Shown piece by piece: positions 21,483 to 23,657 of a stretch of 64,000 nucleotides of DNA. Each line of letters opens with the position of its first letter. Positions within the stretch are counted from its first letter, which is position 1. A model generated the notes under the pieces. That model did no database searches, was not told the origin of the DNA, and saw only the letters and a list, made by a program, of their open reading frames with translations. This DNA comes from Ilumatobacteraceae bacterium (GTDB lineage Bacteria > Actinomycetota > Acidimicrobiia > Acidimicrobiales > Ilumatobacteraceae): assembly GCA_030729045.1 (NCBI GenBank), contig JANQYF010000022.1, forward strand, positions 1-64,000, written 5' to 3'. The position numbers and the translations under genes are program-made.

Positions 21483-21935
21483 TTACTTCACAAATACAGG
21501 ACACGCGTCATCGCCGATTGGACACATTGGCGCATTCTTGCGAACAAGAAGAAAACAACTGTTACACAGAAGTTCGTTTGCGCGTTTCGGCTGCAACTCA
21601 TCGTCGCCAGTTGATCGCTCTTCGTTGTCTGGAACTTCGTCTTCTTCAGCCGGAAGATCTTCGCTGGCAAGGCGGTCTTTCAGAATCTTCGAGAGGTCCT
21701 CTTCGACATCGTCTGGAGCAACCATGTCGTCGTCGTCATCGTCGTCATCACCCGGCTTGCGAACGATGGTGGCACCCATTGAATCGTCGTCGTCTTCATC
21801 GTCGTCGAGCAAAGCGTCTTCGTCGTCTTCGATAAGAGGCTCGTCAAGTTCCAATTCCTTGAGGTCGTCAATTTCATCCCCATCAAGGTCAATCTCCAGC
21901 TCAACTTCAACTGGTTCAATCTTCTTCTTAGCCAC
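21483..21935 (-). CDS. DUF4193-type acidic protein with C-terminal Cys motif
   Basis: Long Asp/Glu tracts, then NELLCNSCFLLVRKNAPMCPIGDDACPVF; upstream AGGAG ribosome-binding site. Confidence 0.8.
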   Translation of the reverse strand: MAKKKIEPVEVELEIDLDGDEIDDLKELELDEPLIEDDEDALLDDDEDDDDSMGATIVRKPGDDDDDDDDMVAPDDVEEDLSKILKDRLASEDLPAEEDEVPDNEERSTGDDELQPKRANELLCNSCFLLVRKNAPMCPIGDDACPVFVK

Positions 21936-22049: not shown

Positions 22050-23657
22050 TTACTGATCTTTTGCGGATCTTTTGGACTCTGCGCGCCTCTCGGACTCAAG
22101 CCGTTCGAGTTCGGGTACTTCTGTCGTCATATGGGACATCGCTGCCGCAACGGCATGATGGCCGGCCTTCTCAGAGATCTGTTTATGCATCTCCAGAGCC
22201 ACCCTGCGGTACGAAGGATGTCCTTGTGGACCTGAGCGCAGTTCCAGCATGTGCATCGCCTCGCGGGCGTTGAACTGCATTACGTAGCGAATTCGGTACG
22301 CCATGGAAACTGCGTAACTTGCCTGATACGGGTGGTCAGCGGCAAGGGCGTCATACAGCGAAGATGAACGCGCCATGACTTCGTCGAACATCTCGGCTCC
22401 CCCAGCTGCATCGACCAATTCAGGACGTGAATAGCCGTGGTATGGGGTCAACGGCTGCCACTCGATTGTCAATAGGCGATGCCGCTGCATGTCGCGAAAT
22501 GCGCCGTAATCAGACAAGACGTCGAAACGGTAGTCAATGCTCTCGAAGGCTCTTCCGGGACGATGGCGACGATTGTCGCGGTTGCCGATGTAGGCATTGA
22601 GAATATCTGTCTTGTCAGCGACGCTCATGGCTTCGACCTTCAGACGAATCTGAGATTCGGGTAAATGCGAATACTGGTAACAGGCAGCTGCCACCAACTT
22701 GTTCTCACCATCAGGATCAAAATCGATAAGCGTCACTTCATCTACATCTGTTGCAATCACGTCACCCATGATTGAGTCAACAATGTCTGTCATGGCCGCA
22801 GTGTTTGTCGAAAGATAGTCAGACCACTTCACTCCACGTTCGGGAACATCAACGCGACGTAGAAATGAAGGAATTACCTTGCGAAGTTCTACAAGCATCA
22901 TGTCTGCGTAGTAACGCGCTTCAGGAAGCGGGTGTGCACGCATGCGCAACAAGAGTTGTTCGTATCCCTGTCCGCTTCCGTAGATTCCGACATTGGACAA
23001 TGACGATGCTGGCAATAACCCGCGCACCGCATCGAGCGCCTTGGCGCGAGTCGCCTGTCGGTAGACAAAGTCGCTGTCTTTGGGCCCCTTGACAACAGTC
23101 GCACGAACATGATCGGTAACCAATTCGGCTAGCTGACTGTATGAATCGAACATGCGGTCCATATCGCCCACGTAACGCGTGCCAAATCGACCTTCAAGAA
23201 TGTCCGGATCACGGTAGTAGCGGTAACGCCCACCGAGTCTGTCGTCATAAGCGATGTAACGAGTACTTTGCTCGAGGTAGCTCATTAAGCGTCCCCACTC
23301 GAGAATCTTGGTCAAAATGTTTGAAGCCTGCTCGCATGCAAGGTGCACGCCGCCAAGTTGCGCCACAGAGTCATCACCGTATTCAACGAATACCTTTTCA
23401 TACAGAGTTTCCGCTCTGTCTACCCCGACTGTTGCGTCGACCGCTTGATCGCCAGCAATCTCCAAGTCGTTCACAAACTCGTCGAGAAACAAACGACGAA
23501 GGCTTCGAGGGCTACGGCTGTAACGCGCAAACAAGGCACCCTTTACAACTTCTGGGAGATTGACTAACGCAAAAACTGGAAGATCAAGATTTGTAAAATA
23601 ACGACGCAGGATGTCAGATTCTGCATCTGTAAATTCCTCGGGAACATAAACACTCAC
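22050..23657 (-). CDS. Double-length ThyX-like (FAD-dependent thymidylate synthase family) protein
   Basis: 535 aa; N-half EWGRLMSYLEQSTRYI, C-half FRDMQRHRLLTIEWQPLT and QFNAREAMHMLELRSGPQGHPSYRRVA resemble ThyX signatures. Confidence 0.8.
   Translation of the reverse strand: MSVYVPEEFTDAESDILRRYFTNLDLPVFALVNLPEVVKGALFARYSRSPRSLRRLFLDEFVNDLEIAGDQAVDATVGVDRAETLYEKVFVEYGDDSVAQLGGVHLACEQASNILTKILEWGRLMSYLEQSTRYIAYDDRLGGRYRYYRDPDILEGRFGTRYVGDMDRMFDSYSQLAELVTDHVRATVVKGPKDSDFVYRQATRAKALDAVRGLLPASSLSNVGIYGSGQGYEQLLLRMRAHPLPEARYYADMMLVELRKVIPSFLRRVDVPERGVKWSDYLSTNTAAMTDIVDSIMGDVIATDVDEVTLIDFDPDGENKLVAAACYQYSHLPESQIRLKVEAMSVADKTDILNAYIGNRDNRRHRPGRAFESIDYRFDVLSDYGAFRDMQRHRLLTIEWQPLTPYHGYSRPELVDAAGGAEMFDEVMARSSSLYDALAADHPYQASYAVSMAYRIRYVMQFNAREAMHMLELRSGPQGHPSYRRVALEMHKQISEKAGHHAVAAAMSHMTTEVPELERLESERRAESKRSAKDQ

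Follow-up and report, generated by a model that had tools for sequence, protein, structure and literature searches.

A double-length ThyX of Acidimicrobiia whose two halves appear to share out a single active site

The locus described here raises the question of whether a protein that resembles two flavin-dependent thymidylate synthases (ThyX) in one chain, neither of which carries the full ThyX signature, could still serve as a thymidylate synthase. The window, by which we mean the whole stretch of DNA analysed (64,000 nucleotides from an Ilumatobacteraceae bacterium), had been given an initial annotation that offered two readings of this gene, namely that it encodes a pseudodimer built around one composite site or else a flavoprotein that has been repurposed. 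From comparisons of sequence, predicted structure and genomic distribution, we believe that the double-length ThyX is very probably the organism's flavin-dependent thymidylate synthase, and that it would operate as a pseudodimer in which each chain has a single live composite site.

The gene (Table 1) starts with a GTG codon and its stop lies at 22050-22052. The Pfam model PF02511 (Thy1) matches the protein in two stretches, with a total of 115.6 bits against a cut-off of 24.8, and each half exceeds this cut-off when scored apart in a whole-genome scan, which bears out the proposal that the ORF is double-length and ThyX-like. Profile comparison with a reference set of 22 single-domain ThyX sequences (PDB fragments from T. 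maritima, T. thermophilus and PBCV-1, plus actinobacterial ThyX) matched both the N-half (E=2.5e-18) and the C-half (E=6e-12). Thus, when the possibility of only one ThyX domain was put to the test, Pfam and profile comparison both found two. Along the signature helix, both halves align to single-domain ThyX without gaps as far as the end of RHR. Direct comparison of the N-half with the C-half yields no convincing match (E=0.015, probability 3%), and their shared ancestry therefore rests on the match of each to ThyX. A phmmer search of the full-length protein against the PDB gave no match, and the link is visible only by profiles and folds. The score against the ThyX equivalog model NCBIfam TIGR02170 is 39.3, below the cut-off of 87.9. 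A frameshift or assembly artefact was ruled out by the presence of the same single ORF in eight single-contig genomes.

Table 1. Features of the double-length ThyX gene, with T. maritima ThyX numbering for the equivalent positions
Feature	Position in window	Strand	Details
Double-length ThyX (two Thy1 domains), 535 aa	22050..23657	(-)	ORF and translation
N-terminal ThyX domain, residues 1-290	22788..23657	(-)	Thy1 48.6 bits
C-terminal ThyX domain, residues 291-535	22053..22787	(-)	Thy1 65.7 bits
GDDS, residues 94-97	23367..23378	(-)	D95 at H53, S97 at T/S55
Signature helix of N-half, residues 117-134 (KILEWGRLMSYLEQSTRY)	23256..23309	(-)	E129, S131, R133 and Y134 retained; W121/G122 at R78/H79
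R212 = R147 (dUMP phosphate), N-half	23022..23024	(-)	175/176
C-half signature RDMQRHR, residues 388-394	22476..22496	(-)	R392, H393 and R394 retained; downstream S-x-R-Y gone
D389 at Q75 position, C-half	22491-22493	(-)	Asp in all except two Bacillota members (Q)
Y448 at R147 position, C-half	22314..22316	(-)	Tyr in 175/176
NAR, residues 463-465 = N163/R165 (FAD contact in canonical ThyX)	22263..22271	(-)	R465 in 154/176
ELR, residues 472-474; R474 = R174 (uracil contact)	22236..22244	(-)	176/176

The neighbourhood of the gene is ordinary. An M20 peptidase encoded on the same strand lies 45 bp upstream, followed farther upstream by a zinc alcohol dehydrogenase, a YegS-like fragment, a DSHCT helicase (found near the double-length ThyX in 60 of 80 related loci) and TatC. 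On the other side are an Asp-rich protein, a GNAT acetyltransferase and an enoyl-CoA hydratase. The Asp-rich protein (150 aa, 21483-21935, minus strand) is immediately downstream and has no Pfam match; a similar acidic ORF family adjoins 22 of the related loci (e.g. L132). The nearest named records are from Acidimicrobiia, chiefly Ilumatobacteraceae.

The two motifs that first drew attention to this protein are both present. The N-half motif WGRLMSYLEQSTRY occupies residues 121-134 (23256-23297), exactly where the initial annotation placed it, and the C-half motif RHRLLTIEWQPLT occupies residues 392-404 (22446-22484), the claimed limit of 22443 being one codon beyond. The NAR and LELR motifs attributed to the C-half were likewise found, at residues 463-465 and 471-474. 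In T. maritima numbering, with the N-half residue given before that of the C-half, the alignment equates R78 with W121/R392, H79 with G122/H393, R80 with R123/R394, E86 with E129/W400, S88 with S131/P402, R90 with R133/T404, Y91 with Y134/P405, R147 with R212/Y448, H53 with D95/P367, T55 with S97/R369 and Q75 with I118/D389. R165 has no N-half equivalent and corresponds to R465 of the C-half, and R174 corresponds to R474 of the C-half and, with uncertainty, to R238 or M239 of the N-half. All of the residues by which the two main subunits contact dUMP and FAD are present in the chain, with R78, H79, R80 and R174 in the C-half and E86, S88, R90, Y91 and R147 in the N-half.

This division is shared by every relative that we collected. 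The 176 double-length homologues comprise 131 from Acidimicrobiia (window protein included), 20 from other actinobacterial classes, 19 phage records or viral contigs, and the remainder from Parabacteroides (plasmid), Miltoncostaea, Euzebya, Paenibacillus, Bacillus licheniformis and Microcystis phage LMM01; they are related by descent and cannot be treated as independent instances, and their extreme members share only ~20-25% identity. A complete RHR...S-x-R-Y signature within one domain is absent, and it is divided between the halves in 176/176. Equivalents of E86, S88, R90, Y91 and S55 occur in all 176 N-halves and that of R147 in 175, and the C-halves hold equivalents of R78 and R174 in 176, of H79 in 175 and of R80 in 174. 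H79, S88, R90, Y91, R147 and R174, all near-invariant columns in the 22 single-domain ThyX sequences, stay conserved in the doubles in one half each. The proposal that the C-half keeps RHR and has lost S-x-R thus holds throughout, the ExSxRY motif being found in 0/176 C-halves. Its counterpart, that the N-half keeps E-x-S-x-R-Y and has lost RH, stands for the retained motif (176/176) and nearly throughout for H79, where His occurs in five phage members; it holds less uniformly for R78, which is invariant in C-halves only and is still Arg in 31 of the 176 N-halves. Over 75 members, distances among N-halves correlate closely with those among C-halves (r=0.97), the pattern that joint inheritance of the two halves after fusion would produce.

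The predicted structure is consistent with two ThyX folds. AlphaFold2, run with 70 sequences, returned a mean pLDDT of 89.9 and a pTM of 0.88, and both halves of the model present helices and strands in the same order, so that the structure prediction suggested at the outset gives two confident ThyX folds. The best 50 Foldseek matches in the PDB are all ThyX, with TM scores of at most 0.73 by target length, and no double-length protein is among them. The best match, Thermus thermophilus Thy1 (PDB 6j61), has the ThyX fold plus an extra C-terminal domain, and differs in having one ThyX domain, 270 aa in total and no ThyX duplication. The C-half alone (residues 301-535) was modelled with a pLDDT of 91.7 and gave TM scores of ~0.6-0.7 against ThyX crystal structures. 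In a viral structure library, only two proteins match strongly over nearly the full length, and they also rank first; both are double phage proteins, namely a 461-aa protein and the thymidylate synthase of Microcystis phage LMM01.

The manner in which the residues are divided can be read against crystal structures of canonical ThyX, where three subunits build every site (PMC6514825). In the M. tuberculosis enzyme, dUMP is bound by Arg95 and Arg199 of subunit A and by Ser105, Arg107 and Tyr108 of subunit C, and FAD is held by the RHR of subunit A together with Ser71 and Arg190 of subunit B (PMC6514825). These dUMP ligands correspond to R78, R174, S88, R90 and Y91 of T. maritima, respectively. 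In PolB, Arg86 and Arg193 come from one side and Glu94', Ser96', Arg98' and Arg166' from the other (PMC5003785), and Arg166' can be equated with R147 of T. maritima. On these residue correspondences, the C-half is predicted to retain the face of subunit A and the N-half that of subunit C, and the halves are specialised along a natural subunit interface. The proposed pseudodimer with one composite site is therefore strongly supported, because the division of residues matches the subunits of ThyX crystal structures and is invariant in the family. It also extends to R147, which the initial annotation did not mention, and to R174, which that annotation brought up only in passing. Contacts to FAD from the third subunit are unevenly spread. 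The N-half supplies S97, and the C-half supplies R465 in bacterial members other than Bacillota; R165 is lost in phages and in the Bacillota plasmids.

We propose that an ancestral ThyX gene was duplicated and then fused, or that two such genes were fused, after which the copies shared out the active site. The C-half would take the place of subunit A, gripping FAD and the uracil ring through RHR and R174, and the N-half that of subunit C, holding dUMP and forming a lid over the flavin (E86, S88, R90, Y91 and R147), such that every chain would contribute to a complete composite site. The other two faces would make up a mirror-image site, which would be dead because its residues have been lost. 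With the reverse pairing (A face of the N-half with C face of the C-half) disabled, each chain is expected to have one live site and one dead one, and two chains might assemble into a pseudotetramer in which two of the four sites are live. Catalysis would presumably proceed as in ThyX, with NADPH reducing FAD and the carbon of CH2-THF passing first to N5 of the flavin and from there to C5 of dUMP.

Against this interpretation we count the change of H53 to Asp in bacterial N-halves (not Bacillota), the change of Q75 to Asp in most C-halves, the missed TIGR02170 threshold, the uneven spread of third-subunit contacts, and the persistence in bacterial N-halves of R80 and possibly of an R174-like arginine. 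H53, a third-subunit residue, is invariant in the 22 single-domain sequences and is mostly Pro in the C-halves of doubles. At position 95 of the N-half, Asp is found in 154 of the 176 members and His in 22, the latter being phage and Bacillota members. However, structures of the T. maritima H53D variant with FAD and dUMP exist (PDB 4kar and 4kas), and Asp at this position is therefore compatible with ligand binding. The Q75-to-Asp and R147-to-Tyr replacements are both nearly invariant in C-halves across the entire family of doubles, those of phages among them.

One variant of the composite-site interpretation places the live site between the N- and C-halves of different chains, in a domain-swapped dimer where fusion would do no more than fix the stoichiometry. 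In its favour, canonical sites use three subunits (PMC6514825), and at least one piece must therefore come from the other chain; in contrast, the model yields a confident single-chain arrangement, as judged by its pTM. We consider this variant a realistic possibility, albeit not the one that we would favour.

A further proposal, compatible with a composite catalytic site, is that the degenerate second site has been retained to bind a nucleotide in a regulatory or structural capacity and provides allosteric control that homotetramers lack. The near-invariant Tyr at the R147 position of the C-half would fit such a role, as would the presence of R123 (R80) and R238 in the N-halves of nearly all Acidimicrobiia. 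R80 persists in the N-halves of bacteria other than Bacillota, and an arginine near R174 (R238) in most bacterial N-halves, which would mean that the dead second site is incompletely erased, although the assignment of R238 as R174-like is only possible. However, this conservation might be purely structural, and R123 and R238 are mostly lost in phage members, such that we regard a retained nucleotide site as unlikely. The more specific idea of a naturally asymmetric thymidylate synthase, whose disabled mirror site now serves regulation by sensing nucleotides, is in our estimation rather improbable. If true, the ThyX reaction and its feedback control would reside on one polypeptide.

The distribution of the gene speaks to its function. 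A profile scan of the source genome (a 1.13-Mb assembly, 80% complete), carried out to look for another thyA or thyX as the initial annotation advised, found no second Thy1 and no ThyA. Double-length ThyX is present in 139 of 198 genomes of the class, and in 116 of the 136 of high quality, all of which have some thymidylate synthase. Only three of these 116 carriers also have ThyA (one by a partial match), and the 20 high-quality genomes that lack the double have either ThyA and no Thy1 (12 genomes) or a single-domain ThyX of ~220 aa (eight genomes, family f21). The negative association between ThyA and the double-length ThyX gives a Fisher p of 9e-10, a value that ignores kinship. In family f26, some genera have ThyA and others the double-length ThyX, and the type of thymidylate synthase therefore appears to have been swapped inside one family. 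One genome of the class (G119:C8:5203-5817) has an extra single ThyX ORF (289 aa) alongside the double.

Organisms that use ThyX can typically dispense with dihydrofolate reductase (DHFR). Among the class genomes, DHFR (PF00186) is found in only 11, four of which have the double, and 112 of the 116 high-quality carriers are without it. ThyA yields dihydrofolate, and five genomes of family f37 have ThyA and no DHFR_1 match, so an alternative reductase is expected there. The correlation between ThyX use and dispensable DHFR has been noted previously (PMC1274311). Taken at the level of gene content, the double ThyX is very likely the organism's sole source of thymidylate.

The remaining alternative, a repurposed flavoprotein in which the fused ThyX catalyses another flavin or nucleotide reaction and the cell obtains dTMP by salvage or through an unrecognised enzyme, draws on the lack of a full signature in either half, the altered H53 and Q75 positions and the score under the equivalog cut-off, but we judge it highly improbable given that the double is the only Thy1- or ThyA-type enzyme in nearly all carriers (single-contig ones included), is nearly mutually exclusive with ThyA and ordinary ThyX, for which it is swapped, retains exactly the dUMP-contact residues, and mostly occurs without the DHFR that a ThyA pathway needs.

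Compared with canonical ThyX (PF02511; T. maritima TM0449 and M. tuberculosis ThyX), the double-length protein has the same fold twice, the same ligand residues and the same genomic role as a ThyA replacement, usually without DHFR. It differs in that canonical ThyX is a single-domain homotetramer with four identical sites, whereas the double has two specialised halves per chain, H53 and Q75 replaced by Asp, R147 of the C-half replaced by Tyr, and a TIGR02170 score under the cut-off. Phage doubles (Microcystis phage LMM01 gp020 of 491 aa, Tunturiibacter phage Tunturi_5 gp50, and those of Vibrio phages BONAISHI and Yong) share its two-domain layout, residue division and nearly full-length structural match, but are only ~20-28% identical to it, keep His53 in the N-half, and have neither R80 in the N-half nor R165 in the C-half. 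The plasmid doubles of Paenibacillus and Bacillus licheniformis (~23% identity) exhibit the same division, with E-x-S-x-R-Y in the N-half and R-H and LxLR in the C-half, and differ in having RHN in the C-half and in retaining Q75.

Several other occurrences deserve mention. In Tunturiibacter phage Tunturi_5 (309 kb; L091:330-2922), the double ThyX adjoins a dCMP deaminase, which suggests a phage pathway for dTMP supply. When viral contigs were scanned with one sequence at a time, neither the Tunturi_5 protein nor P0001 gave a match, but an alignment query did. A Parabacteroides distasonis plasmid (NZ_OY725790.1, L234:2983-4602) encodes a double ThyX that shares 47% identity with its actinobacterial counterpart, suggestive of horizontal transfer. 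Three records titled Bifidobacterium breve or Ferrithrix thermotolerans contain proteins 67-98% identical to the Ilumatobacteraceae double ThyX (98% in CAMDLK010000001.1), and these MAG titles look misassigned.

Public annotation labels double-length members, those of Paenibacillus and Bacillus licheniformis included, simply as 'FAD-dependent thymidylate synthase'. In the literature on fused, duplicated or pseudodimeric ThyX, where subscription journals were thinly covered, we found no description of the double form or of its division. To our knowledge, ThyX chemistry has been studied only in homotetramers, where a mutation alters all four sites and every subunit role together. A natural double with these roles on separate halves would permit residue-by-residue tests of subunit roles, of the number of sites needed and of cross-talk between sites. 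The double ThyX would represent an old event of duplication and division whose outcome has been maintained across one whole bacterial class as well as in large phages and further bacteria. It is likely the sole source of dTMP for freshwater and marine Acidimicrobiia, cultured Ilumatobacter among them.
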